Assembly (NCBI GenBank): GCA_039033415.1
Contig: JBCCCR010000012.1
Location: 1 to 64,000 of the forward strand
DNA from: Pseudomonadota bacterium
Lineage (GTDB): Bacteria > Pseudomonadota > Gammaproteobacteria > Xanthomonadales > SZUA-38
Length of the DNA stretch: 64,000 bases
Direction: 5' to 3'
Below are positions 14,590 through 47,249 of the stretch, in pieces (within the stretch, counting starts at the first letter, position 1; each line of letters opens with the position of its first letter). The notes beneath the pieces were generated by a model. It saw nothing but the letters and a program-made list of their open reading frames with translations. It searched no databases and was not told where the DNA came from. The position numbers were made by a program, and so were the translations under genes.

Positions 14590-15855
14590 TTAATTCTGGC
14601 CCGTTGATTCAAACGAATTTTTGAATATGGGATCGGGAAGATTCACGTTGACCACTAGATAAGGGTTCCCGGAATAAGAACCTGGCGAAACCTGCATCAC
14701 CTGCCCGGAAACGGGAATTGGAAATGGTCCGATGCTTATTGACGGCGAACGACTCAAAAGCGCGTCTTGCAGCAGGTAATCGGCAGAGATGATTTCGATG
14801 GATGAAATTTCTCGGCGGGAGACTAGATCCATGAAGCCCGTCAACGGGTCGGAATAGGACGCAGTGCCATCCGAGTCTTTAAGAATCACCGCTATGGGTT
14901 GACGCGGCATTCGTCTTACGCCGCCACTGAACGTTACCTCTTGTTCACTAGCACGCATTCGGAAGGTCTCGTCTTCGATCGTAATCACATAGACGGTTGG
15001 TTCCGACCAAACGCAAGGTTCGACGCGCAAGAGTAACGAGCTTCGAGATTCCGCCTCTATCCAAGTGTTTTCATCGCCTGTCTCGCAAAGGTCAATTACC
15101 TGTTCTGGTGTCAGCGACGGATCATCAATTCGCCTCCCCATGTCAAAGGTCGCTACTCGAAAGCCGGCTGTGTCAACATTTCTTGTGATTTTGTATCGGC
15201 CAATTCTATGGCCCGGAAGCGCGATCCAGTCGACATCGTTCGGGGAGTGAAAAGTCAGCGGGACAACCGCGCTGCCTCCAAGGACTTGTCTCGAAACACC
15301 CTCGAATGGCGTGAAAATTGGGAACCGTGCTCCTTCGTTGCGCTCGCCATCATCTCTTGGCCAGTCGTTGAAAAGGTAAACGAAGCCATCGGTGGACTCG
15401 CCCTCGACGATTCCAATGTCATTGGCGCCGAGGAAAGTTGTATCTAATACCTGAACGGAAGTCGGCGGCCGGAACGCTAAAGCAGGTCTAAAGTGTGCTG
15501 AAGTGAATCTCAACTCTCCGAGTGGTCCCGATAAAATCTGGGTGGGTTCATTTGCGAAGAGGTTGATAGTTACTTCAATTAGTCCTTGATCTGGGTAATC
15601 GACACAAATGAGCCGACTTTCACCAACGTCCCGGGTCAAAAAAAAACTGCAGTCGTTGGCTGGCTGAATCCGTCTGGGGTCGTATCGCAGTGACGCCGCT
15701 GCTCGGCGCACGTCCATGGCCCCGTCGTCGAAATGAAGCGAAAGCGAAAACTCTGTGTCATCCGTGCTGGCAGTACTTCCAACAATAAACGACGGCTGAG
15801 CGGAAACGAGGCAGGAATGGGTCAACAACATTCCTATTAAGAGAAAGTGTCGCAT
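14590..15855 (-). CDS. Exported protein of unknown function ending in FE tail
   Basis: About 421 residues. ATG at 15855 gives a signal peptide ending in LVSAQP. The N-terminal ~130 residues (FSLSLHFDD...AAASLRYDP...LGELRFTSA) resemble a cohesin-like or alternating beta-sandwich domain with the pattern of dockerin-binding folds, but I cannot assign a family firmly. The rest is beta-rich. The C-terminus DPIFKNSFESTGQN matches the short F-x-[DNS]-[GS]-F-E tail also found at the ends of three other exported proteins in this window. No catalytic motif was seen. The neighbouring minus-strand genes also encode exported proteins, but gaps of 170 bases or more separate them. Confidence 0.65.
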   Translation of the reverse strand: MRHFLLIGMLLTHSCLVSAQPSFIVGSTASTDDTEFSLSLHFDDGAMDVRRAAASLRYDPRRIQPANDCSFFLTRDVGESRLICVDYPDQGLIEVTINLFANEPTQILSGPLGELRFTSAHFRPALAFRPPTSVQVLDTTFLGANDIGIVEGESTDGFVYLFNDWPRDDGERNEGARFPIFTPFEGVSRQVLGGSAVVPLTFHSPNDVDWIALPGHRIGRYKITRNVDTAGFRVATFDMGRRIDDPSLTPEQVIDLCETGDENTWIEAESRSSLLLRVEPCVWSEPTVYVITIEDETFRMRASEQEVTFSGGVRRMPRQPIAVILKDSDGTASYSDPLTGFMDLVSRREISSIEIISADYLLQDALLSRSPSISIGPFPIPVSGQVMQVSPGSYSGNPYLVVNVNLPDPIFKNSFESTGQN

Positions 15856-16037
15856 AGCGGCGGTCAATCCGTCGGTCGGGCCCGATGGACTTCAAGACGT
15901 TTGCGTCGACTCTTTTCCCCCAAAAAGACCAGGCGGTTGTTACCCGCGGCACACGTCCATCGAGTCGTTTCGCATTATGCATAATTACGTGCCATTACCT
16001 CTGAGCCAGAGGAACGCCGACGGGGCTCGTCAATCCA

Positions 16038-16640
16038 TCAGTCTGCTTTTTTCTCTTTGAAGGACGATGAGCAATTGTGAACAGCATAGTCATAGCTATG
16101 CTCAAAGCACTTGAGAAGTCCGTCGACGACGTTGAGGTTTGGCGGCCACCTGATTTCGATCGGCTTCCCGAAAGAATCGACAGGATCGAAGTTCTCAGGG
16201 CGCGGGACAGCGGTTAGTTGTGCCCGGGCGTTTCGAAGGCGCGCCTTGTCGCGTCTAAGGAAGGCGATGGTTGCGTCAACGTAGTAATTCCATCCGTATC
16301 GATCGGGCTTGTTTGCCGGTGTGTAGGTACGTTCCAGCAGGGCGATCGCCGGCTGTGTGTCGCCACCCATGGCCCTCATCTGACCTTCGTGAAAGGTCAT
16401 CATGATTCCTTCCTCACCGTTTGCGTTGATATAGGCTCTGATCAGATTAGCCGCAGCGGTTCGACAACCCGGTTGCTGATACAGCTGTCGCCAACCGATA
16501 TTTGGATCCTGGTCGAAATCTCGCTGGTTCAGCGAGAGCATTTCTGCCATATCGACGTCGCACGTAGGTTCGGTTTCAGCTAGCGCTGTCGTTGCCGCGA
16601 GGAGAGTTCCCAAAATTACAACCGTTCTAGTTCTCATCAT
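16038..16640 (-). CDS. Small exported protein of unknown function
   Basis: 200 residues with a signal peptide (VVILGTLLAATTALA) and four cysteines in the mature chain, which may form disulfides in the periplasm. The middle part (QPAIALLERTY and YVDATIAFLRRDKARLRNARAQL) is helical and has a tetratricopeptide-like look without a clear repeat. ATG at 16640 overlaps the stop of the upstream gene (ATGA), so the two proteins are translationally coupled and are probably used together. I do not recognise a family. Confidence 0.65.
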   Translation of the reverse strand: MMRTRTVVILGTLLAATTALAETEPTCDVDMAEMLSLNQRDFDQDPNIGWRQLYQQPGCRTAAANLIRAYINANGEEGIMMTFHEGQMRAMGGDTQPAIALLERTYTPANKPDRYGWNYYVDATIAFLRRDKARLRNARAQLTAVPRPENFDPVDSFGKPIEIRWPPNLNVVDGLLKCFEHSYDYAVHNCSSSFKEKKAD

Positions 16641-17980
16641 GGGATTCGATATCCATAGATGGTACGTGAACCACGAATAACGTTTTCTGCTGCCCGTACC
16701 GGGCCATCCGATGAAGCCGTGATTCTGTTGATGCCAATGTCTCGTGCGTGGAAAGAGAATATGGGCTGCCATAGGTCTACGGGTATTGCTGGGTCGTCCA
16801 CCAGGGCGCAGAAGGGTACGGCGATTGTGTCGTCATCGTCGATGCAAGCAAGCTGCAATTCCTCGCCGGTTTCTACCTGGGTGAACGTCATTGTGAGCAC
16901 GATGCTTGGGGAAGCTTCTGCAGGAGGATCGAAGCAGCAAGCTACGTCGTAGATTTGGACGAAAGTGCTTTGCTCGTTGTCGTGGGGTGAGGCGAAAACC
17001 CAGCGTCCTGATAAGTCCGGTAGCAGCGGCGCACCGAGCTGTGGGTCGACTTCACCAAGCTCAATCGTATCGGTTGCAAACCAAAATGAACGAATCGGAA
17101 CTGCCGGCTCTAAGCCAAGGCGCATCCTGGCTGAGTCCGAAGACGTGAACTCAAACGTTGCCACCTGTTGTGCCGTGAGCTCAGGCGACTGAAACGGGCA
17201 GTTGAAGCACGCGCCGTCTGTCGCCGAAAAAAGCGGTGCGACGACGACGCTGTCCTGAAGCTGTCCACTACCGACCAGCCATTGAGCCTGTCCGTTCTGA
17301 TCAAATCCGTATACCGCGGCGGTGACCATGTCTCCCTGGCGGTCGATGGTCACACCGCTTCCAGGTCTTGTGGGGTTCCACCACAGACCGGTGTTGGGCG
17401 GAGGTGTCCGATCGGTCTCCGCAATTTGCCGAAGGTAAACGTCATCAGCAAACACGGAACGAGGCTCTGCTACTCCCTCGTCTTTAGACACCAGCAGGAG
17501 CACTTCGACCGATCGAATATCCGGACCCGCATCAAATCGACCGCGCAGTTTCTGCCAATACTCGCCGGCTCCTTCGGTGGCGACGCTGGGAAATTCTGAC
17601 CTCGATCGGGTGTCCACTCGGCATTCGGGCTGGGTAAAGGCATTCAGGTTGACCAAGCCGCGAGTATTGCCCTCGGTTTCGTGGGCCGGGACATAGACGC
17701 TGGCACCATATTCCAAAGAGGTCTCCGGCTCGATGTTCACACACTGAGTTAAAACGATATACCGCCCTCCCCCAATAGGGCGCCAGGCGATCAGCTCGAC
17801 GGAGCCGGAGCCAATGTCTCGCGAGTAGTCCAAACGCCGGGGGTCGGGCGGCAGAATGTAGGGGTTTCCCCAGCCCTGATAGGAGCCCGTAAAGCTGGCA
17901 TTGACGAGCAGGTTGCCGCTGCCGTTTGCCGAAACAGCGAGCGAGAGCCCAACGAGCAACAAAGCAAATAGGATTCGCAT
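16637..17980 (-). CDS. Exported protein with N-terminal carbohydrate-binding-like domain and WWNP domain
   Basis: 447 residues from ATG 17980, which directly begins a signal peptide (LFALLLVGLSLAVSANG). The longer frame to 18178 is unlikely because it runs through the MarR promoter. Residues ~25-180 (NLLVNASFTGSYQGW onward) look like a carbohydrate-binding beta-sandwich. From ~205 comes NTGLWWNPTRPGSGVTID, followed by AAVYGFDQNGQAQWLVGSG, the signature of a recurrent exported-protein domain. A second copy of this WxNPxxPGxG motif is found in the gene at 34822-35685. The function is unknown. Binding of a surface glycan is a guess from the N-terminal domain. It overlaps the next minus-strand gene by four bases. 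Confidence 0.7.
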   Translation of the reverse strand: MRILFALLLVGLSLAVSANGSGNLLVNASFTGSYQGWGNPYILPPDPRRLDYSRDIGSGSVELIAWRPIGGGRYIVLTQCVNIEPETSLEYGASVYVPAHETEGNTRGLVNLNAFTQPECRVDTRSRSEFPSVATEGAGEYWQKLRGRFDAGPDIRSVEVLLLVSKDEGVAEPRSVFADDVYLRQIAETDRTPPPNTGLWWNPTRPGSGVTIDRQGDMVTAAVYGFDQNGQAQWLVGSGQLQDSVVVAPLFSATDGACFNCPFQSPELTAQQVATFEFTSSDSARMRLGLEPAVPIRSFWFATDTIELGEVDPQLGAPLLPDLSGRWVFASPHDNEQSTFVQIYDVACCFDPPAEASPSIVLTMTFTQVETGEELQLACIDDDDTIAVPFCALVDDPAIPVDLWQPIFSFHARDIGINRITASSDGPVRAAENVIRGSRTIYGYRIP

Positions 17981-18084
17981 CGGCACCCGCTTGGTTCGAC
18001 GGTAGCTGGAATTTACCGACCAAACCTGTTCGTCGATTGGCTGCATATCCGCATTATGAAGAAAGTCCCGGTCGATTTGCCAGC

Positions 18085-18129
18085 CAATTATAATTGATGT
18101 ATTTACATCATGCAGATACACCGTATAGA
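18085..18129 (+). promoter_or_regulatory. MarR-gene promoter with overlapping operator palindromes
   Basis: TGATGTA-TT-TACATCA (18095-18110, seven-base perfect arms) overlaps a perfect 12-bp palindrome CAATTATAATTG (18085-18096). A likely -35 TTTACA at 18102-18107 and -10 TATAGA at 18124-18129 are 16 bases apart and lie just before the MarR ATG at 18138. The operator therefore covers the promoter, fitting autoregulation by the MarR protein. Confidence 0.6.
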
Positions 18130-18137
18130 ATCTAAGG

Positions 18138-18560
18138 ATGAACCTACCTTGTGCCTGCACAACCGTGCGAAAAGCCAATCGAGCGCTGTTTCGCTTTTAT
18201 GAACACGCTATGGATGGGTCGGGCGTATCCATTACGCAATTTGCGATTCTCCGCGCGTTGGACCGCAACGGAGAAACGCCGTTGTCGCGATTGGCGGATG
18301 AACTGGTGATGGAACGGACGTCCTTGTACCGGACGATTGCGCCCTTGGTTGAGGCCGGAGCGGTCGAGCTCACCGCCGCGCCAAAAGGTCGAACCAAGCT
18401 CGCTGCCGTGACCCGCGAGGGCAGGGCGCTCATGCACGCGGCCGCCCCGAACTGGGACGCCGCCCAGGCAAGCGTTGTGGGTGCCTTGGGTCCGGAAAAC
18501 TGGAAGGCACTGTCGGAAACGCTGCTGCAAATCCCTCACTTGCTCAAGGAAGAAAGCTAA
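18138..18560 (+). CDS. MarR-family transcriptional regulator
   Basis: 140 residues, typical MarR length. The winged helix spans roughly residues 30-95: ITQFAILRALDRNGETPLSRLADELVM is the helix-turn-helix approach, RTSLYRTIAPLVEAGAV the recognition helix, and PKGRTKLAAVTREGRALM the wing. MarR dimers bind short palindromes and release them on binding a phenolic or other small ligand. The palindrome at 18095-18110 is a natural site. Its stop overlaps the start of the decarboxylase gene by one base (TAATG), so the regulator and enzyme are made from one message and the decarboxylase is the probable target. Possible ligands (an aromatic amino acid or amine) are inference. Confidence 0.88.
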   Translation: MNLPCACTTVRKANRALFRFYEHAMDGSGVSITQFAILRALDRNGETPLSRLADELVMERTSLYRTIAPLVEAGAVELTAAPKGRTKLAAVTREGRALMHAAAPNWDAAQASVVGALGPENWKALSETLLQIPHLLKEES

Positions 18561-20041
18561 TGCCAATCCCTGTATCCGGCGTCAAACACGACTCGCTCGA
18601 TCCGAGTGACTGGCATGAAGCCCGTCGGGTGGCTCATCAGGTTGTCGACGATATTGTTGACTACCTGGAGACGATCAGAGAAAGACCTGCCTGGCAGTCG
18701 GTTCCCGAACACGTCAAACAAGCGCTTGACCAGGATTTGCCCCTCGAGGGTGCACCCCTTGGAGAGGTGTATCAGGAGTTCAAAGAAAACATCCTTCCTT
18801 ATCCCACGGGGAACCTACATCCAGGATTTTTCGGTTGGGTTATGGGGACCGGGACGTTCACCGGCGTGATTGCCGATGCGCTGATGGCGACCATGAATGC
18901 TCACGTGGCCGGTTATGATCAGTCTGCCGGGGTTGTCGAGCGCAAGGTGATCTCCTGGCTGGCTGAGCTGGTCGGCTTTCCGAAAGACTCGTCGGGTCTT
19001 CTGGTTACCGGCGGGACGATGGCGAACCTGAACGGATTAGCTGTCGCAAGGCACGAAAAAGCGGGCTTCGACATTCGGCGAGACGGTCTGCAGGGGATGG
19101 GGTCGCAACGGCTTCGTGTGTACGGCAGCGTTGAAACCCACAGCTGGATTTACCGGGCCTGCGAACTGATGGGTCTTGGTCGCGATTCTTTTCGGGCTGT
19201 ACCCGTAAACGAACACTTCCAGATGAACTTGGCCGCGTGTCGACAGATGATTGAGGCCGATATCGCGCGCGGAGACAAACCGTTTTGTATTCTTGGAACC
19301 GTTGGATCGGTGAATACCGGAGCAATCGATGACCTCGTCGCTATCAGAAACCTCGCGGATCGGTTTGATTTGTGGTTTCACATCGATGGTGCATTCGGAA
19401 CCCTGGCGGCTTGGGCTGAAGACGCCCGCTTTCTCGTTGAAGATCAGGCGCTGGCGGATTCCATTGCCTTCGATCTGCATAAATGGGGCTACATGCCGTA
19501 CGACGTGGGGTGCGTGTTGACCAAAAATCCTGAGGCCCAAAACGAAGCGTTCGGGCAAAGCGCGTCGTATCTTTCTCCCACCTCTCGCGGCTTAGCGGTT
19601 GGCACAACCTACTTTGCCGACAAGGGCATCCAGCTTTCCCGAAGCTTTCGCGCACTCAAAGTTTGGATGTCGCTCAAAGAGCAGGGGGTGTCTCGAATCG
19701 GGCGTGCAATCTCCAAAAATATTTCCCAGGCCCGCTATCTGGAACGAAAGGCGAGATCAGCCCCAGAAATCGAACTCCTGGCACCGGTGTCGCTCAACGT
19801 TGTTTGCCTTCGCTTTCTCGACAACCGGCTAAGTGAAGCAGAATTGAATGAGCTCAATCAGGAAATTCTGCTGCGTATTCAGGAGAGCGGCACGGCCGTA
19901 CCGTCCCATACGGTGATCGACGAGAGCTTCGCCATTCGGGTTTGTATCACTAACCATCGAACCGAAAACTCTGATCTGGACCGACTCATCACTTCCATCC
20001 GGAATTTCGGACAACAGATTGTCGGGGAGCGAGCCGCTTAG
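18560..20041 (+). CDS. PLP-dependent aromatic-L-amino-acid decarboxylase family
   Basis: 493 residues, the usual length for group II decarboxylases (aromatic amino acid, histidine or glutamate type). It has TGGTMANLNGLAVAR in the cofactor region, FHIDGAFGTLAAW with the cofactor-ring Asp, and FDLHKWGYMPYDVGC with the PLP lysine (about residue 308). The family decarboxylates amino acids such as tryptophan, tyrosine, DOPA or phenylalanine to amines, in the cytoplasm. Sequence alone does not distinguish decarboxylase from the related aldehyde-synthase or tyrosine/aspartate enzymes. Translational coupling to a MarR regulator suggests ligand-induced expression. It is convergent with the TetR gene. 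Confidence 0.88.
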   Translation: MPIPVSGVKHDSLDPSDWHEARRVAHQVVDDIVDYLETIRERPAWQSVPEHVKQALDQDLPLEGAPLGEVYQEFKENILPYPTGNLHPGFFGWVMGTGTFTGVIADALMATMNAHVAGYDQSAGVVERKVISWLAELVGFPKDSSGLLVTGGTMANLNGLAVARHEKAGFDIRRDGLQGMGSQRLRVYGSVETHSWIYRACELMGLGRDSFRAVPVNEHFQMNLAACRQMIEADIARGDKPFCILGTVGSVNTGAIDDLVAIRNLADRFDLWFHIDGAFGTLAAWAEDARFLVEDQALADSIAFDLHKWGYMPYDVGCVLTKNPEAQNEAFGQSASYLSPTSRGLAVGTTYFADKGIQLSRSFRALKVWMSLKEQGVSRIGRAISKNISQARYLERKARSAPEIELLAPVSLNVVCLRFLDNRLSEAELNELNQEILLRIQESGTAVPSHTVIDESFAIRVCITNHRTENSDLDRLITSIRNFGQQIVGERAA

Positions 20042-20068
20042 CCGCGTTTAGTCTCGTTGTCGGCAGAA

Positions 20069-20776
20069 CTAGCCAACGGCATCCAGCCGGTCGGCGACCC
20101 TCTCGAGTCTGTCCACGATCGGAGCGATCGCGTCCGTCGCCGTTGATTGAGCCGGTTTGGCGCCAACTCCCCGCTGCAGCAGGTCAATCACGTTGGTGAC
20201 GATGACTTGGATTTCGTCGTCGGGCGCGTTCTTTAGTATGTGCGTGCGCATGGCGTATTCGAGCGAGCCGAAAAACAGATCGCGGATGATCCAGTGGGGT
20301 ACGTCGTCCCGGAGCTCCCTCTTATGGATGGCGGCACGAACGACGCGATCAAAAACGGCGACGTAGGATTTGTTGTACTCGTACGGCATGTCGCTCTGGT
20401 ATTCGCTGACCTCACGAAAGCGAGCGATCATCAGCTCCAGGATCCGCCAGTCGGCCAGGCAGCGTTCGATGTGGTGGTTGGCGAGAAACGTGAGACGCGC
20501 GTACGTGTCTTTTGTGTCTTTGATTCCATCCTCGGCCCCTCTTGTTAGCTCCTGGTAAAACCGGCCGATGACCGCCAGCAAGAGTGCGTTTTTGTTCTTG
20601 AAATACAGATAGACGGTTCCCTCAGCCACACCCGCTAGCCGGGCAATATCGGCCATCTTTGTGCCTTCAAAGCCGTTTTTGACAAACGCATCGTGAGCAA
20701 CGGCAACAATGGCCGCTTCGCGTTCTTCGAGGCGTTGCCGGCGGGTTTTAGTTTGCTGTACTTGAGCGTCGGCCAT
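20069..20776 (-). CDS. TetR-family regulator (AtuR/LiuR-like context)
   Basis: 235 residues. The N-terminal helix-turn-helix is clear (KMADIARLAGVAEGTVYLYFKNKNALL, about residues 41-67), followed by a variable ligand-binding helical domain. It begins two bases after the stop of the acyl-CoA dehydrogenase gene, so both are cotranscribed. Opposite is the atuA/carboxylase operon. The divergent control region (21922-22013) contains two copies of ATGAG-N5-CTCAT, the most likely operators. In Pseudomonas, the TetR protein AtuR represses the acyclic terpene genes by binding two inverted repeats between atuR and atuA, and the arrangement here is analogous. An acyl-CoA ligand is inferred. Confidence 0.85.
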   Translation of the reverse strand: MADAQVQQTKTRRQRLEEREAAIVAVAHDAFVKNGFEGTKMADIARLAGVAEGTVYLYFKNKNALLLAVIGRFYQELTRGAEDGIKDTKDTYARLTFLANHHIERCLADWRILELMIARFREVSEYQSDMPYEYNKSYVAVFDRVVRAAIHKRELRDDVPHWIIRDLFFGSLEYAMRTHILKNAPDDEIQVIVTNVIDLLQRGVGAKPAQSTATDAIAPIVDRLERVADRLDAVG

Positions 20777-20778
20777 CG

Positions 20779-21921: not shown

Positions 21922-21946
21922 GGTTTCTGTCTGACCCTGTCACAAA

Positions 21947-21981: not shown

Positions 21982-22013
21982 AGTGTACCGAGACGAGAGC
22001 CTTCACGCCAACG

Positions 22014-28617: not shown

Positions 28618-28619
28618 GG

Positions 28620-29513: not shown

Positions 29514-30968
29514 ATGCGTTGTCAGCAAAGCTATATCGACGTGTGCCCGCTCACTGAGCATACGTCCCCTATTCCGGCCCGGCTCGGTTTTTTCTTCGCT
29601 GCTCTCCTACTCCTCGTTACGGTCCGCGCTACGGCCGTATCGATTCTGGTCACTACAACCATCGACGAGATTTCCGTCAACGGGCAGTGTAGCCTTCGCG
29701 AGGCCGTCCAGGCTGCTAACTCTGACCTTCCTGTAGATGTTTGCGCCGCCGGAAATGGGGCAGACCTAATCTTGCTCGGCTCGGGTACCTACACCCTTGA
29801 AATCGTTGGTCGGGAAGAGGACGAAAATCTGACTGGTGATCTGGATTTAACCGCGTCATTGACCATGGTCGGTACGGGGCAGGACCAAACGATCATCGAC
29901 GGTGGCTCCCTGGATCGAGTTATCAATGTGGATCCAGGGAGCATCGGCGTCTCGGTATCCATCGAAGGCTTAACGATTCGTGGCGGTGACGCAGAAAGGA
30001 ACACCGGTTTACGAGAGGACTTCGGAGGGGGAATTCGAAACCATGGTGAGTTGACGCTCCGCGACGTCACGCTGCGAAACAATATTGCCTTCTCAGGGGG
30101 CGCAATCGAGAATCGCGGTGTGCTAACGCTGCAACGGACGGTGCTGGTTGAGAATATCGCCACCTGGGATGGCGGCGGGGTATTCATTGCACCAGGCGCT
30201 ACCACAACTATTGAAGACTCTAGAATTCTCCGTAATAGCGCGGTCTCAAGCTTTGGTGGGGGCATTGGCAACCAAGGCACTTTGGCCCTATACCGATCCG
30301 AATTATCTGACAACAACGCCCTGGCCGAAGGCGGTGGTTTATTCTCAGATAGCATGCTGCAGGTGGAGTCGAGTTTGGTGGCCAGTAATGGCTCAGACAT
30401 TGGTGGCGGGATCTTCATTCAAAGCGGCACGTCAACGCTGACGAACGTCACGATCAGCGGCAACGAATCTCGGATCCTTGGCAATGGTGGTGGACTTGCC
30501 GCCTCTGGGACCGGCACGCCAAACGTAACGCTGCTACATGTCACGATCACCGATAATTTCCCGGACGGAATTTTTGTTGACGGCAGTGGCGTATCCAGTA
30601 CGGTCGCAAACACCATTATTGCCGGTAATCAGGTTGCCGACTGTGTCAGTATTGAGAATAGCCTTATGTCCGAAGGGCACAACCTGGACAGCGATGGCAG
30701 CTGCGTCACCGATGGAATCAATGGCGATCTAACTCGCGCCGATCCTGGACTTGGACCTTTGGCTAGCAATGAAGGGCCGCTATCGACGCACGCGCTCGTC
30801 GATGGCAGTCCCGCGATTGATTCTGGCAACAACGATCGTTGTGCCGCCAGCGATCAGCGCGGCATCGAACGTCCGCTCGACGGTGACGGCGACGGCCAAA
30901 TTTCTTGTGATATCGGGGCCTTCGAGGTCAGTCGAGATCTAATCCTTGCTGATGGCTTCGAGGACTGA
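29514..30968 (+). CDS. Exported CSLREA/beta-helix protein with FE tail
   Basis: 484 residues. A longish N-terminus leads to a hydrophobic signal (ARLGFFFAALLLLVTVRATA). Then comes the CSLREA motif (NGQCSLREAVQAANS) that marks a class of exported right-handed beta-helix proteins. Repeated coils rich in GGGIRNHG, GGAIENRG, GGGVFIAPG, GGGIGNQG, GGGLFSDS, GGGIFIQSG build the helix. The last ~70 residues resemble the choice-of-anchor Q region (HALVDGSPAIDSGNNDRCAASDQRG...DIGAFEV). The protein ends LILADGFED, one of four FE tails in this window. Surface adhesion or polysaccharide interaction is typical speculation. No lyase residues were recognised. Confidence 0.8.
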   Translation: MRCQQSYIDVCPLTEHTSPIPARLGFFFAALLLLVTVRATAVSILVTTTIDEISVNGQCSLREAVQAANSDLPVDVCAAGNGADLILLGSGTYTLEIVGREEDENLTGDLDLTASLTMVGTGQDQTIIDGGSLDRVINVDPGSIGVSVSIEGLTIRGGDAERNTGLREDFGGGIRNHGELTLRDVTLRNNIAFSGGAIENRGVLTLQRTVLVENIATWDGGGVFIAPGATTTIEDSRILRNSAVSSFGGGIGNQGTLALYRSELSDNNALAEGGGLFSDSMLQVESSLVASNGSDIGGGIFIQSGTSTLTNVTISGNESRILGNGGGLAASGTGTPNVTLLHVTITDNFPDGIFVDGSGVSSTVANTIIAGNQVADCVSIENSLMSEGHNLDSDGSCVTDGINGDLTRADPGLGPLASNEGPLSTHALVDGSPAIDSGNNDRCAASDQRGIERPLDGDGDGQISCDIGAFEVSRDLILADGFED

Positions 30969-31061: not shown

Positions 31062-32384
31062 TCAGTCGTCGAATTCGAAGCCGTCGCTGAACAACCCCGG
31101 TAGCTTGAGAAAGCGACCGCGGATGCTGAGAGGGTCGCTGTCGCCGACAAACGAATGCCAGACGATCATGAGACGACCGTCCCTGTCGCTGGAAACTGCC
31201 GGGTAGCGTTGGAAATTGTTGGTTGTATCGTTGACGCGAAACTCGTCGCCGACAAAGGTGCCTTCCTTCAGAATTCGCCGAGCCCAGATCTCACGATCAT
31301 TGCCAGTGGGCGCCGGGCTTTCCCACACCACAAGAAACCCGCCTCGCCCGTCGGCAGCAACATCCAGGTTCTCCTGGCTGCCAGTCGTATTTTGGTTGAC
31401 GCTCAGCTCGTCCGTCAGCGGTGTGCCGTCTTCGGCATAGATTCGTGCCCTCACGTCCGGTACGCGAGTGTCTCGGTCGGACGGGAATGACGAGAAATCG
31501 TTTTCCCAGGCGATCAAAAAAACGCCGTCGGTGTCTGCGCCGACCGCTGCGTTGTGCTGACTGTGCGGTTCCGTCTGATTAACCTGCTGCTCGCCACCTA
31601 AGGGCGTGCCGTCTGCGGCGTACCGTTGGAAGACCACGGCCCGCCAATCGGCGTCTACGTCTCGGCTTTCCCAGACCGCTACGAAGCCATCCGACAGGCC
31701 GGACATCTTTACTTCGTTCTGCCAGGACTGCGAGGTGGTATTGATTCGGAACTCTGGCCCCGGCTGCCCTGAGGTGTCGTAGATCCGGCCATAGATCTCA
31801 CCGGCCAAGACGCTAGGCTGCTGGCCGTCGTTCCGGGGTTGCTCATCACTTTCCCAGGCCACCATAAGATTTCCAGCTGCGTCGAAGGCGGAAAACGGGT
31901 CGGATTGGTCGTTCTGAGTGTAGATGTTGACTCGGAACTCGTCGCCGACCGGTGTTGCGTCTCGGTTGAGCCTCTGTCCGTAAACGCCGAAGTCGCTGCC
32001 GTCCTGATCGCGACTCCGCCAGAAGACCACAAAAGATCCGTCGGGCGCGACGGCTACGGTCGGCTGGCTCTGCACGCTGGCCGTCTCGGTATTGACGATG
32101 ACCTCGGGGCCTAGCGGGTCTCCGCTAGCGTCATAAAGCTGGGCGGCAACGGCGTGCTGATCGCCGTCTTGCCCGATGCTCTCCCAGGCGACGAGCACCC
32201 GACCGCTACGGGCCATCGCGAGCCGGGGAAACCCCTGGTTCTCTGGAAAGTAGCTGTTGACCCGAAACTCGCCGCTGTCGAAAACTATTCCGCTGTTCCC
32301 GAGCGTCGTTTGAGCAACCGAAGACAGTGCTGTAGACAAGCCGGCAATCAGCGTAAGCATCAGCCCGCGAATAGGTGGCGTCAT
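31062..32384 (-). CDS. Exported seven-repeat propeller-like protein with FE tail
   Basis: 440 residues, signal peptide MLTLIAGLSTALSSVAQ. Seven tandem repeats of about 55-60 residues each begin with [EV][FV][RI][VI]N and end with [VI][AV]WES (for example EFRVNIYTQNDQSDP...NLMVAWES). This predicts a seven-bladed propeller in which the blade edges carry the Gly-Asp-Glu-Phe-Arg-Val-Asn motif. It ends LPGLFSDGFEFDD, matching the FE tail of other exported proteins here. No enzymatic residues are evident. Its neighbour on the left is the convergent CSLREA protein, which also carries the tail. Confidence 0.75.
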   Translation of the reverse strand: MTPPIRGLMLTLIAGLSTALSSVAQTTLGNSGIVFDSGEFRVNSYFPENQGFPRLAMARSGRVLVAWESIGQDGDQHAVAAQLYDASGDPLGPEVIVNTETASVQSQPTVAVAPDGSFVVFWRSRDQDGSDFGVYGQRLNRDATPVGDEFRVNIYTQNDQSDPFSAFDAAGNLMVAWESDEQPRNDGQQPSVLAGEIYGRIYDTSGQPGPEFRINTTSQSWQNEVKMSGLSDGFVAVWESRDVDADWRAVVFQRYAADGTPLGGEQQVNQTEPHSQHNAAVGADTDGVFLIAWENDFSSFPSDRDTRVPDVRARIYAEDGTPLTDELSVNQNTTGSQENLDVAADGRGGFLVVWESPAPTGNDREIWARRILKEGTFVGDEFRVNDTTNNFQRYPAVSSDRDGRLMIVWHSFVGDSDPLSIRGRFLKLPGLFSDGFEFDD

Positions 32385-39639: not shown

Positions 39640-39656
39640 GATTTGGCCGCTGGCGA

Positions 39657-40226: not shown

Positions 40227-40349
40227 TATGTTTCTCCTTTTCATGTGCATGTGGCGCAGCCGACGACTGCCCTCGGCGGGGCGATCGCGCTGCTAGATAG
40301 AGGTTTGCTTGTGAGGCGCCGAACCCGATCGGGCCGGCACCGGTTCTGG

Positions 40350-41327
40350 CTAGGAGGCCTTTAGCCCGATGAGCTCAGAGCTCTTGCCGAGGCAGACGCG
40401 TCCGATTGCGCCGACATGGCGGTGATCAGTACCGCAGCATCCTCCGAAAACACGTAGCTTAGGTAGGTACGCCATCAGCTCCTTGTGCTGCTGGGCCAGC
40501 TCGAGGGGATTTCCTTCGTCCAGCGTCTCTGCCTCGTCCAACTCAGCATGGCTTTTGCGCGACGCGTTGGTTCGGAGCCCACCAATCCTGCTTCGCCACT
40601 TTTCGTTGCTTTCAAGCACCGGTCGAAAGTGGTCGGGGTGAGCGCAGTTGATCATGTAATACGCCGGGCCTCTGGACAGATCTGCGTCCACCTCGTCAAT
40701 GGCATCGCCAAGCGATTGACCGGAAGGCAGCCGGCCGTCAGTTTCCACCGTAAACGAGAGCACAAGGGGAACACCTCGACGGGCGCAGGCTCGATTGATT
40801 CCGATCGCTTCGCCCGTGTGGGTCATCGTGATGGCGCTGATCATGTCAACACCAGCGTGAGCAAAGGTTTCAATCTGGGCGCTGTGATAGTCGGCCGCAT
40901 CTTGCGGGTCCAGCAGTTCATCGGGTGCATAGCCATCACCATAGGGTCCAACATTGCCGCTGACGACAAACGGTCGGTCATCCTCAAATGCCTCGCGGAG
41001 CTCAAAAAGCATCTCGATGCTCTGCTGATTGGCTTTCACGAGATCCTGCTGGCTGTATCCGAGCTGGCTACCCCAGCGTTCACTTGCTCGCCAGGTGGGG
41101 CTATCGAGAATCAGCCCAAGGTTCTGCGAACGGGCAACCTTGATGTAGCTCTCGTAATAGAGACGAAGCGCGGTCTGTCCCCAGTCGGATCGCAACAGCG
41201 TAAAGGCAGCAAATAAGGGCAAATCCAGGCCGTAGTGGAAAATCATCGTCGTTTCCAGGCCGCCGTCGGTCAGCAGATACTCGTCATTGAGCTGAGGCAG
41301 GCAGCGCCGATATTTTGGGTTTTCCAT
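40350..41327 (-). CDS. Homocysteine S-methyltransferase-family protein
   Basis: 325 residues. N-terminal LTDGGLETTMIFHYGLDLP, middle MINCAHPDHFRPVLE, and C-terminal VFGGCCGTDHRHVGAIG form the zinc-binding cysteines of the pcl02574 (MmuM/BhmT) barrel: Cys in INCAHP and the GGCCGT pair. It would transfer a methyl group to homocysteine or a related thiol from S-methylmethionine, betaine or another donor. No cobalamin domain is present. ATG at 41327 is preferred over the GTG at 41330. An AraC regulator precedes it on the same strand. Confidence 0.85.
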   Translation of the reverse strand: MENPKYRRCLPQLNDEYLLTDGGLETTMIFHYGLDLPLFAAFTLLRSDWGQTALRLYYESYIKVARSQNLGLILDSPTWRASERWGSQLGYSQQDLVKANQQSIEMLFELREAFEDDRPFVVSGNVGPYGDGYAPDELLDPQDAADYHSAQIETFAHAGVDMISAITMTHTGEAIGINRACARRGVPLVLSFTVETDGRLPSGQSLGDAIDEVDADLSRGPAYYMINCAHPDHFRPVLESNEKWRSRIGGLRTNASRKSHAELDEAETLDEGNPLELAQQHKELMAYLPKLRVFGGCCGTDHRHVGAIGRVCLGKSSELIGLKAS

Positions 41328-41452
41328 CACTTCTTCTCGCTATTTCTCTGTTCGTTGCTCTAAGTTACTTGCGGCCCAGCAATCCGCGAATGATCGTTGC
41401 GCCGCAAATCATGACCAAACCGCCAGCGGTCGATCGGCAAGCTGGCGGATGC

Positions 41453-42445
41453 TCATGCGGACTTGCGCCAGTCTGCCGGCGATAGACCGGTTCTTCGCTT
41501 GAAGGCGCGCGAAAACGCTTCCGGCGCGCTGTACCCTACGCGGTACGCGACCTCTGACGCGCTCAGGCCGGTGTCTCTAAGCAGTGAGGACGCCGCGTCC
41601 AGCCGCTGTGCCTGCAGATAGGCGCGCGGGCCGATTCCCATTACGTCGGTAAAGCGGTCCACAAAAGCGGACCGTGACATGGCAACCGAGCGGGCGAGAT
41701 CCTCAATACGGGGTGGCTCCGAGAGATTCTGATGAATCACGCTCAGCGCCCGTGCGATACGAGGATCGGCTAGCCCTGCCAGCCAACCTTGAGGCTGGGG
41801 ATGGCGCTCGACATGCGCTCGAAGCGCTTCGATCAAGAGCAGGCGGCACAAGCTGGAAACGAAATCTGCGCCGACGGCTCGCCCGCGCCCGAGTTCGCGA
41901 GCGGCCATAGCCATAGATGCCTGAATCCAGTCGCGCATCGGCAGGCTGTCAATATGAATGACCAGTAGCTCCGGCAAGCAATCCAGCAATGGGAATGGTT
42001 GTGAGCCCGTCGCCATGAATCCGCACAGCATTCTTGTTGGTGTGCCACCGCCACCGTACCGGATCTGGAGAAGCCCGTCCGGCTCAGCGGGAATCAGTAA
42101 ATCGTCGCCAGACACGGGCGGCACGCCGGTTTCGCTGGCTAGTACATGCAATGCGTTAGACGGCAGAAAAATAATGTCCCCGCGCGTTGCGCGGCAGTGT
42201 TCTCGGTAGCCATCGCCCGCGTCCATCGAGACCAATAGCTCTCCTTCAGTGACGATGTGATACGCAATCACTTGACATGGTTCCATCACCCAAGGCTGAC
42301 AGTCCTCTTTTGTGACGTGGGCCGAGATGGCCCACGGTGCGGTGAATTCACCCTCGAGGAAGACAGAGCCCTTTAGGTCGAGTGCCCCAATGATCTTCGC
42401 CAAGGGGTCGGAAGCCGACGGGTTGCTTTCGAACACGGATTTCAT
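41453..42445 (-). CDS. AraC-family regulator with cupin sensor
   Basis: About 330 residues. The first ~180 residues are a cupin sensor (WAISAHVTKEDCQPWV, VIAYHIVTEGELLVSM, RATRGDIIFLP), the arrangement of AraC/cupin-6 regulators. The C-terminal ~100 residues have two HTH motifs: RIEDLARSVAMSRSAFVDRFTDVMG and SASEVAYRVGYSAPEAFSRAFKRRTGLSP, the last being the AraC hallmark. ATG at 42445 is preferred to the longer frame. It sits 125 bases upstream of the homocysteine methyltransferase gene and is a likely activator of the following run. The ligand is unknown. Confidence 0.88.
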   Translation of the reverse strand: MKSVFESNPSASDPLAKIIGALDLKGSVFLEGEFTAPWAISAHVTKEDCQPWVMEPCQVIAYHIVTEGELLVSMDAGDGYREHCRATRGDIIFLPSNALHVLASETGVPPVSGDDLLIPAEPDGLLQIRYGGGGTPTRMLCGFMATGSQPFPLLDCLPELLVIHIDSLPMRDWIQASMAMAARELGRGRAVGADFVSSLCRLLLIEALRAHVERHPQPQGWLAGLADPRIARALSVIHQNLSEPPRIEDLARSVAMSRSAFVDRFTDVMGIGPRAYLQAQRLDAASSLLRDTGLSASEVAYRVGYSAPEAFSRAFKRRTGLSPADWRKSA

Positions 42446-42867
42446 GGGCAGACAGACGTAACGACTGTGGTTTGCTTCTCGCACGCATGTTGCAATTCCT
42501 GACTTTTACTGCACTTTCCCGCCCTGCAGAGGCTTGCTTGCGTCCGTATGCCCTCTCGCTTGCTGGGTTTGATCAAGGATGAAGCTAGGAGAGACAAATT
42601 GAGCTTGCGTGCGTCTGTGCCCCTGTCGAAACGTTTTTTGATCTGAAAAAGCTGATTGAGTGCATTCTCGAAGTTCTGACAGTTGGCCACGATTTTCCGT
42701 CCATTTGGCGCCAAGAGCTCGGCAAAGGCTCAAGACATTTGATGGGTCCACGTAGCTTTCATACGCAATCGAGCTTGATACTCCGTCACGATCAGCGGAA
42801 CAACAAATCTCTAGGGGGTTTGCCGCGGGTCATCGTCTGACGACGGCGATTATCGGAATAAGCGGCT
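42446..42867. other. 422-base intergenic stretch without a supported gene
   Basis: Divergent spacer between the AraC regulator and the protein kinase. Open frames on the minus strand (around 42442-42751) lack start sites and domain signatures. I saw no strong palindrome or terminator. It should contain both promoters, but no convincing -35/-10 pair was found. Confidence 0.5.
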
Positions 42868-45318
42868 ATGGAAATTGAACAAACTGAATCGGATCTATTG
42901 CTTGAGCGAGACCGACGGGTACACGCCGGCCGGCTCCGCAGGCTTTTTGACAGCTACTGGGACGCGGATCCTTCCGACCGAGCCCAGCTGTTTGCCGACG
43001 TTGAAGCCATCGATCCGCTGCTGGCAGACCGCCTTAGAGGTTTGATATCGGCTGAGGCGGAGTCACCGGCGGCCAGCGAAACGTCGAATCAAGATCTGGC
43101 CGCAGGGCGAGACTTTGGCGCTTATCGCGTCGTTGAACGACTGGGCGCGGGCGGCATGGGGCAGGTATTCCTGGCCAAGCAGGAGTCGCCTGTCCGGCGT
43201 CAGGTTGCCTTGAAAGTTATGCCCTGGCACGCCGCGCTTGATCCGGAGCAACGCGCAAGGTTCACCGCTGAGCGTCAGGCGTTGGCGAGCCTCTCGCATC
43301 CGAACGTGGCCAACTTCTATGCAGCCGGTGAGACGGATAATGGTCTTGCGTATTTTGCGATGGAGCACGTGGAAGGTCACCATATCGATCACCATTGTGA
43401 GGCGCAGTCGCTGGATTATCGGCGGCGGCTTGAGCTGCTGCTGCAGGTGTGCGCCGGGGTCTCCCACGCCCACCGCAAAGGACTTGTACACCGGGATCTG
43501 AAACCCTCCAACATCCTGGTGACCACCGATGGCGCTGACCCGCTGGTGAAGATCATCGATTTTGGTATTGCCAAGGCGGCGACCGCAGGACTCCGTCCGG
43601 AAACGTTTGAAACGCATGCCGGACGCATTGTTGGCACGGTTAACTACATGAGCCCCGAGCAGGCGCGTGGCAACGAATTGGTTGATACACGAGCGGATGT
43701 CTACGCGATCGGCGTCCTTCTCTACCGGCTTTTAACCGGACGAACGCCGTTTGCGTTCCAAACGGGAGAGCTAGCGCTATCCCAGATTTTTCGACGCCTC
43801 GACCAGGAGGATCCGAAGCGACCATCCGAGTTGACCTCCGGCCCCGAGCGGGCGTTTCTCCAGGGCGATCTGGATTGGATTTGCAGCAAAGCGGTAGCCC
43901 GAAACCCGAGGCGTCGCTACGCTTCCGTGGACGCGCTGGCGCGAGACCTGGAGGCATTTCTTGAACGAAGGCCCGTAGAGGCGAGACCGCCGACTCTCGC
44001 GTATCGGTCAGCGAAGTTTATCTCGCGCCACCGTGCGGGGGTTGCGGCCTTCGGATCGATCTTGCTGGCAGCATTGTTTACAACCCTTTGGTCAGTCCAC
44101 CAGGCCAGACGAGTTGAGGTGGAAGCCAAAACGGCAAACGAGGTCATCACGCTGCTACGAGAAGCGTTTTCTGCCGCGGATCCCAGTCAGGGGCAATCGC
44201 TTACGGTGCTGGACGTCCTCGATCAGGCCGCTGGCAATCTTGACGGTTTGGCCACCGAAAACCCGGTTCGGGCCCGCCTTTCCATGGAGCTGGCAGACGT
44301 ATACATGAATCTTGGGCAGCCAGTACAAGCCCTCGAACTCTGGAACGCGGCGTTAGAACTTGAGCTCGAACGGAACGGCGACGAGAGTGATGGTTCGCGG
44401 CGCGCGCTGGTCGGAAAGGCGATAGCTCACAGGGAGCTCTCGCAGTTTGATGACTCAGAGGACGCGCTACGGCGGGTGCTCAAGCTGGAGGAAAAGCTCA
44501 ACGGCCACAACAGCTCACAGGCACTGCTGGCGCGCAGCAACCTCGCGGCACATTACCTCGCCCAACATCGCCATGATCTGGCGCTGCCGCTGTTTGAGCA
44601 GGCCTTCGTGGATTCGCTGGAAATCCACGGTCCGGAGCATGCTAATACGCTTAAGATTGCCGCCAACCTGGCGTTGAGTCTTCGCGACGTTGACCTCGGT
44701 CGTGCGATCGATTTGGCTGAGCTTGCATTGAACGGCTTGAATTCTGTACCTGGATCCGACGCCATCATGCTGGTAGGCCTTGAGTACAACCTGCTGACGA
44801 TGCTCGGGCAGGCGAATCGAATTGACGAAGCCAAGGTTCGAATCTCGGATCTCTATGGCCGAGCAGAGAAGTTGCTGGGGGCGTCACATCCGCTCACCCA
44901 ATCCATTTGGGAATCCGAGGGGAATTTAGCCCTTGCCTCCGGAGATCTCGATCGAGGTGTCGCGATTCTGGAATTGGCGTTGGCAAAGCGTGTTGAAGAA
45001 CTCGGGCCAGAGCACCTTCAATCGATTCGCCTTCAGTCCAATCTTTTGTCCGCGAAGTTCGACCGGGGTGACGACCCAGAATTGTTGCGCCCCGCGGTCG
45101 ACGAGCTGGTTAAGAGAACGCGAGAATTCCTGGAGCCCGACAGCCGGATCAGCATTCAAAGCATTGGATTAGCCATTGAGATCACCCTCGCAGCCGGGCG
45201 GGCCGCTGACGCGCGGGCGATACTCGATGGAAACGAACTGCCGGAGGACGTGCGCGACCGTCTGCTTAAGCTCGAGTCCTGGGCTGGTAGCAAGAAAGTC
45301 AGCGCAATCAGTCGTTAG
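42868..45318 (+). CDS. Membrane Ser/Thr protein kinase with TPR sensor domain
   Basis: 816 residues. A ~85-residue leader precedes a Hanks-type kinase domain: ATP loop LGAGGMGQVFLAKQ, Lys116 in RQVALKVM, catalytic Asp210 in VHRDLKPSN, DFG Asp231 in IIDFGIAK, and SPEQARG. A single hydrophobic helix (about 391-412, AGVAAFGSILLAALFTTLW) separates the kinase from a long extracytoplasmic helical region with TPR-like repeats rich in Leu/Glu/Ala. This architecture is common in gammaproteobacteria and planctomycetes beside TIGR02999-type ECF sigma factors. The sigma gene here lies nine bases away, in the opposite direction. The sensed signal is unknown. Confidence 0.92.
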   Translation: MEIEQTESDLLLERDRRVHAGRLRRLFDSYWDADPSDRAQLFADVEAIDPLLADRLRGLISAEAESPAASETSNQDLAAGRDFGAYRVVERLGAGGMGQVFLAKQESPVRRQVALKVMPWHAALDPEQRARFTAERQALASLSHPNVANFYAAGETDNGLAYFAMEHVEGHHIDHHCEAQSLDYRRRLELLLQVCAGVSHAHRKGLVHRDLKPSNILVTTDGADPLVKIIDFGIAKAATAGLRPETFETHAGRIVGTVNYMSPEQARGNELVDTRADVYAIGVLLYRLLTGRTPFAFQTGELALSQIFRRLDQEDPKRPSELTSGPERAFLQGDLDWICSKAVARNPRRRYASVDALARDLEAFLERRPVEARPPTLAYRSAKFISRHRAGVAAFGSILLAALFTTLWSVHQARRVEVEAKTANEVITLLREAFSAADPSQGQSLTVLDVLDQAAGNLDGLATENPVRARLSMELADVYMNLGQPVQALELWNAALELELERNGDESDGSRRALVGKAIAHRELSQFDDSEDALRRVLKLEEKLNGHNSSQALLARSNLAAHYLAQHRHDLALPLFEQAFVDSLEIHGPEHANTLKIAANLALSLRDVDLGRAIDLAELALNGLNSVPGSDAIMLVGLEYNLLTMLGQANRIDEAKVRISDLYGRAEKLLGASHPLTQSIWESEGNLALASGDLDRGVAILELALAKRVEELGPEHLQSIRLQSNLLSAKFDRGDDPELLRPAVDELVKRTREFLEPDSRISIQSIGLAIEITLAAGRAADARAILDGNELPEDVRDRLLKLESWAGSKKVSAISR

Positions 45319-45327
45319 ACGCCGCTA

Positions 45328-45969
45328 TCAGCTCGGTGTTAGACCATCACCTGCGGCAGGCATACCACCCAGGTGATCGATCAGCCACGCCCTCGCAAAG
45401 CGCCAGTCGCGAGTGGCGGTGGCCGTCGAGACGCCGGCAACCTCCGCTGCTTCTTCAAGGCTGAGCCCGCCAAAGTAACGAAGTTCAACGATGTTGGCAG
45501 CCCGCTCGCTTTCCTCCGCGAGCTTTTCGACGGCGACACTGAGATCAAAGATTTCGAAATCATTCGGTTCACCGGCGATCCTGGCCTCGTCATAGTCCAC
45601 GCGTTGCTGATCGCCGCCGCGCTTCTCACTCGCGCGGCGCCGCGCGTAGTCGGCCAGGAGTTGCCTTAGTCCCGTCGCGCAGGCGCCGAAGAAATGTCGT
45701 CGGTTTTCAAATTTGTGGGCTGAGCCTTCGAGCTTCAGATAGAGCTCGGAGATCAGCTCAGTCGGCTGCAGCGTCACGGGCGAGCGGCGTAGCCACGAAG
45801 CTGCCTGCTGCCTCAACTCGCCGTAGACCCGCCGATACAGCGCTTCCAGGCCATCGCCCTCTTCGGCGATGCGCTGGAGCAATATCGTCACGTCACCGGC
45901 TTCGGGCTTTCCTGCAGAGTGTGGACCGTCGTTCACCAATCGCTCCAGTTCGAACGAAGATTGAACCAC
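45328..45969 (-). CDS. ECF-type sigma factor (TIGR02999/ECF43-like)
   Basis: 213 residues. Region 2 contains TLQPTELISELYLKLEG and FENRRHFFGACATGLRQLL, followed by ADYARRRASEKRGG. Region 4 contains VELRYFGGLSLEEAAEVAGV and STATATRDWRFARAWL with the HTH. The pattern is that of TIGR02999 sigma factors. In Vibrio parahaemolyticus the related EcfP is active only when the kinase PknT phosphorylates a threonine in region 2. Here the adjacent kinase could do the same, with a candidate Thr in the PVTLQPTEL stretch. GTG at 45969 is the start; no ATG is available in the right place. No anti-sigma gene is adjacent, which agrees with kinase control. Confidence 0.88.
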   Translation of the reverse strand: MVQSSFELERLVNDGPHSAGKPEAGDVTILLQRIAEEGDGLEALYRRVYGELRQQAASWLRRSPVTLQPTELISELYLKLEGSAHKFENRRHFFGACATGLRQLLADYARRRASEKRGGDQQRVDYDEARIAGEPNDFEIFDLSVAVEKLAEESERAANIVELRYFGGLSLEEAAEVAGVSTATATRDWRFARAWLIDHLGGMPAAGDGLTPS

Positions 45970-46062
45970 GCGATTCTTGCTCCCGCAATTGGCGTTCGCT
46001 CCAGCGCTTCCGGTTTCCGATGATAAACGGTCGTCTAATCCGTGTGTCGCTCATTCCTATGA

Positions 46063-46088
46063 CCCGCCCGTGCGCACGGCGGGCGGGC
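46063..46088 (+). terminator. GC-rich hairpin upstream of the sigma gene
   Basis: CCCGCC/GGCGGG arms around an inner CGTGCGCACG, followed on the plus strand by GGTTTTGATTT. It lies between the minus-strand secreted-protein stop (46119) and the sigma start (45969). The T-rich side suggests plus-strand polarity although no plus-strand gene ends here. Confidence 0.45.
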
Positions 46089-46118
46089 TTGGTTTTGATT
46101 TAAGCATTCCTCCTGGTG

Positions 46119-47249
46119 CTACTCGAAGGATGAGGCAAACACCACGTCGATCTGCGCGGGCTCTTCACCCACCCGTAACCCAGCCGGCCCGCCAGCGGTC
46201 TCCAGCAGCAGGGGCAGCTGCTCTGGAGAGGTCGACGGAGCCTGCGCGGTCGGAATGATCGCCAGCTCCGGCAGGCCGGCTCCGGCGAGCGCAACCAGGT
46301 CGACTCGCTCGCCGGCCTCATACAGACCAAGGTCCGCGCCACCTTTGCTGCTTGGTAGCACCAGCCGGTAGGGTGAGCCGCGGTCCAGCTCCTCCGGTGG
46401 CAGCGTCACAGCGATCAGCACTACCGGCGGTTCAGGCACCAGGATGGCGCCTTCGGTGACCGGCGCCGTCAGCCATCCTTGAACCGTATCTTCGGTGTAA
46501 ACAATCGGTATAGGTTCGAGTGCTGGATCAACAAAGGTGGGTCCGCCGGCTAGAAACGCAGTCTCCCCGGTTTCGACAGCCATCTCCGCGGACAGACGAA
46601 GGGACCACTGGCTGTCGGTCGGGAGCTCAAATCGCCAGTTGATTCGCGTCGTGGTGAGGGCCCTAGGTGATCGGGCAATCGAGTCCTGGAAGCTAGCAAA
46701 GTTGCTACCGGAAAAGGACGCGCTGATGCCTGAGAAGTTCGGTCCGGTGCCGGTGAATCGCGACTCGGTCTTGAGCCAGGCTAACGCGGATTGGGATAAA
46801 GATCCCTGGAATCCGTCAAATTGTTCGACCAAGAAACCCGTAGCGGTATCCTGACTGAATTCCGATATGTCGATCTCGCCGCTGAGTCCCGCATTCAGAA
46901 CGGTGCTTCGCCGCTGTGACAGGATCTGTGGGCTTGTTGCCAAGAAGAAGTCCAGCTCTGCCTCAAGAAAACAGTTTGCGGTTACCGGTGCAAAGAGGTT
47001 TCCAACGCCGGCGCTAAAAGCCAGGAGCAACTCGTATTCACCGGCGGGCAGATCGACAGCTTGATCTCCAGACCAGTCCAAATCAACGTCACCGTTCCAA
47101 GTCTGCTCAAAGGCTTGCGATAGGGTCGAGAAGTTGTACAGAGAAACCTCGACGGAATGACACAGGTTTATCTGAGATCGGGCGACGCCTGAGTACAGCG
47201 CGGCCGCAAGTAGTGACACGAAAACGTGTATCGGCTTTGTCATTTTCAT
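46119..47249 (-). CDS. Exported protein of unknown function ending in FE tail
   Basis: 376 residues, signal peptide KPIHVFVSLLAAALYSGVARSQ. The chain is beta-rich and low in charge, with Ser/Thr/Asn-rich stretches (NFSGISASFSGSNFASFQ) and a proline-rich centre. No domain was recognised. The C-terminus QIDVVFASSFE is the fourth example in the window of a hydrophobic-F-x-[DNS]-[GS]-F-E ending, here at the extreme terminus. It lies upstream of the sigma factor on the same strand with a 149-base gap, so it might share a regulator with the kinase/sigma pair. Start ATG at 47249 or 47243. Confidence 0.65.
   Translation of the reverse strand: MKMTKPIHVFVSLLAAALYSGVARSQINLCHSVEVSLYNFSTLSQAFEQTWNGDVDLDWSGDQAVDLPAGEYELLLAFSAGVGNLFAPVTANCFLEAELDFFLATSPQILSQRRSTVLNAGLSGEIDISEFSQDTATGFLVEQFDGFQGSLSQSALAWLKTESRFTGTGPNFSGISASFSGSNFASFQDSIARSPRALTTTRINWRFELPTDSQWSLRLSAEMAVETGETAFLAGGPTFVDPALEPIPIVYTEDTVQGWLTAPVTEGAILVPEPPVVLIAVTLPPEELDRGSPYRLVLPSSKGGADLGLYEAGERVDLVALAGAGLPELAIIPTAQAPSTSPEQLPLLLETAGGPAGLRVGEEPAQIDVVFASSFE

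Follow-up and report, generated by a model that had tools for sequence, protein, structure and literature searches.

Four exported proteins encoded in the window, by which we mean the whole 64,000-nucleotide stretch analysed here (positions 1 to 64,000 of contig JBCCCR010000012.1 in the gammaproteobacterial assembly GCA_039033415.1), end in a common tail of about nine residues. We found the tail to be a genuine module that stands at the C-terminus and, in the window's genome, is specific to exported proteins; in its order it co-occurs, also within families, with the canonical type II secretion system (T2SS) that has a PDZ-type GspC protein. Judging from sequence, the tail is probably a protein-level sorting tag, free of a membrane helix, for the canonical T2SS, with GspC as the leading candidate for its reader. 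As the tail is found mostly in genomes with one kind of T2SS, the proteins that end in it may share it as an address label for that system.

All four tails listed in the original prediction are present in the window sequence, as reading of the proteins P0001 to P0004 showed. For P0002 the tail was confirmed, and its frame extends to 15867, the earlier value of 15855 being an internal ATG start. Only P0001 lies on the plus strand; P0002, P0003 and P0004 are encoded on the minus strand, a point left unstated before. The proteins and their tails are placed in the window as follows.

14590 to 15867, minus strand: P0002, exported protein of unknown fold, tail carrier (an ATG start at 15855 is also possible)
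14593 to 14628, minus strand: tail of P0002, IFKNSFESTGQN
29514 to 30968, plus strand: P0001, exported right-handed beta-helix protein with CSLREA and choice-of-anchor Q domains, tail carrier
30741 to 30929, plus strand: choice-of-anchor Q domain (NF041518) of P0001
30939 to 30965, plus strand: tail of P0001, LILADGFED
31062 to 32384, minus strand: P0003, exported repeat protein (propeller-like), tail carrier, with all Pfam and NCBIfam matches below cut-off
31065 to 31094, minus strand: tail of P0003, LFSDGFEFDD
46119 to 47249, minus strand: P0004, exported protein of unknown fold, tail carrier, with no family above cut-off
46122 to 46145, minus strand: tail of P0004, VVFASSFE

The window tails follow the pattern F-x-[DNS]-[GS]-F-E, with L replacing the first F in P0001 (L-x-D-G-F-E), a replacement seen likewise in 3 of the 48 tails of the own-genome sample described below. 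When a loose form of the motif was run on the 503 stop-to-stop frames of at least 60 residues in the window, P0001 to P0004 were returned together with one spurious-looking frame of 70 residues. The mature parts of the four proteins differ, as had been claimed; for P0002, neither Pfam nor NCBIfam had a match at E≤1. The choice-of-anchor Q domain stops 12 residues before the C-terminus of P0001, and the tail therefore occupies the slot after the domain. A comparison of P0001 with the scanned named genomes gave one distant relative, in Dyadobacter, with a different C-terminal part, and plasmid records show that relatives of P0001 and P0003 (C-termini unread) occur in other bacteria.

To count tails in the window's own genome (6.42 Mb in 62 contigs) we used a sample of 1.264 Mb, made up of six 200-kb stretches and the window, with 896 genes from a home-made caller and with signal peptides assigned by a rule of our own in place of SignalP. 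The strict motif lay no more than 14 residues from the C-terminus in 41 of 325 predicted exported proteins vs. 5 of 571 others (Fisher p 3e-14), which bears out the expected enrichment among exported proteins. The core motif was present in 50 copies in 353,503 residues, 45 of them at a distance of at most 14 residues from a C-terminus. With the pattern slightly widened we obtained 48 carriers, whose tail consensus is [DE]-x-[ILV]-F-x-[DSN]-[GS]-F-E-x(0-4); the number of residues after FE ranges from 0 to 13 and is 0 to 4 in 43 of the 48. A signal peptide was called in 42 carriers, the remaining six being five unclassified proteins and one of the membrane class. After extension to the whole frame or with a relaxed class, which added these six, a signal-peptide start is possible in 48 of 48, and in the control the same frame extension gave such a start to 60 of 468 non-tail genes. 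Because the home-made caller missed P0002, the tail counts are likely under-estimates. Even extrapolation from the sample gives about 240 carriers for the window's genome, and a whole-genome search with a tail profile yielded 158 first-look candidates and scored 66 of them.

The carriers are unrelated to a large extent. When signal peptide and tail were removed, the 48 proteins fell into 25 BLAST clusters (the largest with 12 and 8 members), so that full-length homology, named beforehand as the finding that would speak against a separate module, does not explain the tail. Matches at E≤0.001 were obtained for 41 carriers, to 50 Pfam and 22 NCBIfam families including beta-propellers, beta-helices, FG-GAP, cadherin-like, ThuA, kumamolisin pro-domain and choice-of-anchor I and Q. 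The tail-coding 21-mers are distinct in 48 of 48 cases and their synonymous codons follow genome usage, therefore a DNA repeat encoding the tail is ruled out; the tail is selected at the protein level. The absence of a membrane helix and of a basic cluster also held: one transmembrane-like segment was seen among the 47 tail regions long enough, and lysine and arginine make up 3.5% of the last 10 residues, which are acidic (23% aspartate and glutamate). An end signal of outer-membrane barrels was ruled out as well, as 0 of 22 exported proteins of at least 300 residues ending in F, W or Y carry the tail. The tail thus has what defines a C-terminal sorting tag in the wide sense, namely a short shared C-terminus on unrelated exported proteins, many per genome, and the enrichment and the unrelated carriers support the sorting-type signal that the original prediction had proposed.

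For the survey of the order we searched 151 genomes with a tail profile seeded from the window's genome (G000), the match lists being hand-copied into scripts. Genomes were mostly in one of two states, with matches either abundant or near absent: families f1, f3, f4, f8 and f11 have mostly tens of matches, f2, f7 and f12 mostly 0–4, and f5, f6 and f10 10–18. We scored a genome as tail-positive at 10 or more matches at E≤10, a threshold chosen after the distribution was known. In a class-wide draw of 185 genomes, 54 others gave 1–3 matches and the rest none, the window's genome having 54 scored ones. Of the 184 other genomes, at least 2 are from the order itself, and 110 that gave no match were unlisted. 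Among the genomes sampled, the tail profile is abundant only in those of one order. The export bias was also counted in 200-kb stretches of six relatives, as tails in exported vs. other proteins. A clear excess was obtained only for G003 (6/37 vs. 0/87), the others giving 2/53 vs. 0/96 (G031), 1/47 vs. 1/98 (G149), 1/57 vs. 0/94 (G036) and 1/61 vs. 0/115 (G005). The G100 stretch (0/12 vs. 0/136) is uninformative, because the caller gave only 12 exported proteins among 148 genes.

Many genomes of family f9 seemed tail-negative, and in this family we found a dialect of the tail, F-x-[DS]-R-F-E. This R-dialect was seen directly in three proteins of the G036 stretch and at three choice-of-anchor loci. 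A profile made for it gave 12 to 67 matches in 14 of the 19 apparently negative f9 genomes, 0–1 in 14 control genomes without PDZ-type GspC, and 1, 1, 0 and 6 in the G-dialect genomes G000, G050, G064 and G003, respectively.

A secretin search in the order revealed two kinds of T2SS. The Xps-type has a GspE whose best match is PilB, with the XpsE N-terminal domain; it forms a full gspE-to-gspD operon in the window's genome and in G090, and its genes are present in tail-negative G022 too. Such an XpsE-like system is in keeping with Lysobacterales/Xanthomonadales as the order; the original prediction had linked similar tails to Lysobacterales. In the canonical T2SS the genes stand in the order gspC-gspD-gspE-gspF, often next to rho-trxA-rhlB and then ftsE-ftsX; in the window's genome, which has the PDZ-type GspC, the cluster lies behind gyrB. 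Canonical GspC contains T2SSC and PDZ regions and is nearest to OutC, EpsC (PDZ) and PulC, and the canonical GspE is EpsE-like (EpsE match 1.4e-183). Two of the loci read, in G109 and G077, have tail genes near the gspC-D-E-F cluster.

The tail follows the canonical system. We scored GspC with a profile built from 13 sequences of genomes that were later counted (positive at E<1e-30); it splits the genomes cleanly, E<1e-35 vs. >1e-11, with one intermediate, G060 (6e-21), counted as negative. With the G-dialect only, 59 of the 151 genomes have both tail and PDZ-type GspC, 23 GspC only, 5 tail only and 64 neither (Fisher p 9e-17). Counting either dialect, the numbers become 73, 9, 5 and 64, so that 137 genomes are concordant; when states were shuffled within families 20,000 times, one shuffle came up to that number. 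PDZ-type GspC is present in 73 of the 78 tail-positive genomes. Families f12 (4 both, 20 neither) and f2 (1 both, 24 neither) are fully concordant, whereas f7 is discordant (1 both, 2 GspC only, 2 tail only, 19 neither). G019 of f8, with few tail matches (3), is without PDZ-type GspC, GspD (E≤1e-100) and GspG. Among the 26 genomes searched for them, all 11 that are tail-positive and have PDZ-type GspC had both a GspL over cut-off and a GspG of the matching type. G023 (f2) has a second T2SS with GspL and GspG, lacks PDZ-type GspC and has no tails; therefore a T2SS as such is not enough.

Other candidate partners were tried and rejected. The Xps-type T2SS was ruled out, as it occurs also in tail-negative genomes. 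Only 3 of the 48 genomes tested (G013, G052 and G096) have a rhombosortase over cut-off, and the window's genome stays below it. Exosortase is absent from 9 of 21 genomes tail-positive in either dialect, with no match at E≤0.001 in G016, G002, G008, G010, G036, G050, G012, G109 and G149; of the remaining 27 genomes, 4 have it. The check for a gene co-occurring with the motif thus singled out the canonical T2SS with PDZ-type GspC and neither of these two enzymes. A short exosortase-family protein over the Pfam cut-off is encoded in the window's genome (G000:C11:136429-136863, a 188-residue frame) and in 15 other genomes of the 48; it occurs patchily, whether or not a genome has tails, and is present in G062 and G096, where tails are found but PDZ-type GspC is not.

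The choice-of-anchor proteins give a closer view of the tail slot. The window's genome has 34 choice-of-anchor Q matches, and 18 of the 30 loci read around such matches hold an open frame that ends in the tail (in L002 this is the neighbouring P0003). Relatives of P0001 in the order are represented by 24 closed frames listed, P0001 included. From genomes with PDZ-type GspC, 22 of 22 such frames close with the tail or a variant near to it: 13–15 further residues follow in three, two show the R-dialect and one has an FQ form. A relative from G058, a 77%-complete draft without PDZ-type GspC, also has the tail. In G106, likewise without PDZ-type GspC, the choice-of-anchor Q protein (locus L094) stops at the domain and is tail-less, a single case.

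Several observations weigh against a link between tail and canonical T2SS. The most serious discordance is that of G062 and G096, which are 97–98% complete and have tails without PDZ-type GspC or matching GspL and GspG. The tail is found without PDZ-type GspC also in G047 (90% complete), G058 and G117 (94%, 460 contigs). Conversely, GspC is accompanied by too few tails in G020, G081, G088, G108, G118, G126 and G143, while GspC-positive G063 (7 matches) and G142 (9) are just below the tail threshold and G006, G010 and G017 (13, 11 and 10) barely over it. The survey counts are six-frame matches to a 10-column profile, with C-terminal position and export checked only in the stretches and loci read. 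The R-dialect profile was made from 6 seeds of G036, G093 and G098, all counted genomes, and was run on 14 of the 69 GspC-negative ones. Shuffling was done within families and with no species tree, and the f12 pattern could be one event of gain or loss. Finally, the co-distribution was compared only for T2SS, rhombosortase and exosortase.

As a mechanism, we propose that the carriers would cross the inner membrane by Sec and then fold in the periplasm, where an exposed C-terminal strand could be recognised by the canonical (EpsC/OutC-type) T2SS, which would carry the tailed protein across the outer membrane. The reader may be the PDZ or HR domain of GspC, or GspD, GspC being the leading candidate. 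Secretion of the carriers by the T2SS, recognition of the tail, the identity of the reader and any surface anchoring are what we infer from these distributions. A role of GspC as reader is plausible because, in the passages of PMC12369372 that concern it, secretion of VesB depends on the EpsC PDZ domain, and a disordered loop of PelI binds the OutC PDZ domain. On the opposite side, the distance from FE to the carboxylate varies from 0 to 13 residues, and therefore a classical PDZ contact with the carboxylate fits poorly; the variable distance may favour strand addition over contact of the PDZ domain with the end group. We put forward more tentatively, as a possibility with the odds somewhat against it, that the tail is the first linear and portable T2SS signal, read by a dedicated GspC PDZ or HR domain, with the G- and R-dialects co-evolving with the reader.

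The main rival, which we regard as rather unlikely, is that the tail is the recognition site of a processing or anchoring enzyme, such as a sortase-like transpeptidase or a protease, with the T2SS merely as downstream exporter. There is a precedent, as an intramembrane protease cleaves MYXO-CTERM and GlyGly-CTERM proteins, which depend on the T2SS as well (passages of PMC11980579), and the place of the tail behind a choice-of-anchor domain, in P0001 and in a number of relatives, would suit such an enzyme. However, the tail has no membrane helix or basic cluster that would hold it for an intramembrane enzyme, and rhombosortase and exosortase, the two enzymes searched, do not follow it.

An indirect association, in which lineages losing the T2SS changed lifestyle or genome content and shed many exported proteins, carriers included, is in our estimate unlikely. 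Phylogenetic inertia could produce it, since the states may cluster in a few lineages; yet the association survives shuffling within families, and in f9 the dialect changes from G to R in genomes that keep PDZ-type GspC. A purely structural role of the tail at the C-terminus, for instance as a capping strand that was spread by descent or domain shuffling and has no part in sorting, is very improbable: the motif could form a short beta-strand and turn, and many carriers match beta-rich families, but these families are unrelated, 45 of the 50 motif copies stand at the extreme C-terminus, families of mixed state mostly lose tails where the canonical T2SS is missing, and a choice-of-anchor Q protein does without the tail in G106.

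Some further observations concern the carriers and their surroundings. A dedicated neighbour gene was considered as well and rejected; the recurrent neighbours of tail genes in the own-genome sample fall into three groups, which resemble kinases (13 pairs), response regulators (13 pairs) and sigma factors (4 pairs), the names resting on N-termini only and the pairs being raw counts. Some carriers adjoin an apparent sigma factor and serine/threonine kinase, as judged by their N-termini. In a few exported proteins (C5_0696, C4_0541 and one near 194992 of the G149 stretch) the motif stands right behind the signal peptide and not at the C-terminus, the sequences being NDVIFIGDFEP, CGEILSDGFEND and PDAIFVNGFELG. 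Internal copies are present in the long proteins C2_0224, C2_0226 and C4_0530, possibly carrier fusions or mis-called genes. Carriers C3_0393 and C5_0711 end in SFEC....LCP, a two-cysteine tail, and the ELWxxDGT repeat family matches 2 of 41 carriers, perhaps these two.

The choice of cargo by the T2SS has long been unclear, and a tag that tracks one T2SS would open it to deletion and grafting tests. A tag of nine residues is perhaps present on 160–240 proteins of the window's genome. If the proposed sorting role is true, it would give many hypothetical exported proteins a probable destination and provide a short fusion tag for secreting proteins.

In keeping with the view that the tail belongs to no named system, NCBIfam models of sorting signals matched neither 42 tail segments nor 41 full carriers. 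The protein model rhombotarget A matched 2 tail segments and 3 carriers, in P0001 far below its cut-off. In the literature search, none of the titles and abstracts listed described the tail. A close likeness is to MYXO-CTERM, which according to passages of PMC11980579 is short, marks the C-termini of dozens of exported proteins in a genome, is confined to a clade and is coupled to the T2SS; the tail is likewise short, clade-specific, carried by many exported proteins and tied to the T2SS. However, MYXO-CTERM has an invariant cysteine, a membrane helix and an arginine-rich end, and the tail has none of these: there is no cysteine in the consensus of the 48 tails, and MYXO-CTERM models were unmatched (myxosortase was not searched). 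GlyGly-CTERM, described in part of PMC3237569 as a many-to-one C-terminal tag on signal-peptide proteins, is tripartite with a helix and a basic end, whereas the tail is without either. PEP-CTERM, in the same part of PMC3237569, marks exported proteins as sets with a common signal at the C-terminus, and a genome often has at least twenty of them. It has a PEP motif, a helix and an arginine cluster, none of which the tail has.

The Por sorting domain of the type IX secretion system (T9SS) is C-terminal, lacks a membrane helix, stands on varied proteins and is coupled to a secretion machine. It is a folded domain of about 70 residues, in contrast to the about 9 residues of the tail, and Por_Secre_tail matched 1 of 41 carriers only (E 3e-5; T9SS machinery was not searched). 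With substrates of the canonical T2SS (EpsC/OutC/PulC) the carriers have in common that they are exported and that the GspC concerned has T2SSC and PDZ regions and the GspE is EpsE-like. VesB is such a T2SS substrate (passages of PMC12369372). T2SS substrates are described as having no common linear signal in the corresponding passages of PMC7949064 and PMC12369372; the tail carriers, in contrast to the substrates covered there, share one linear tag.

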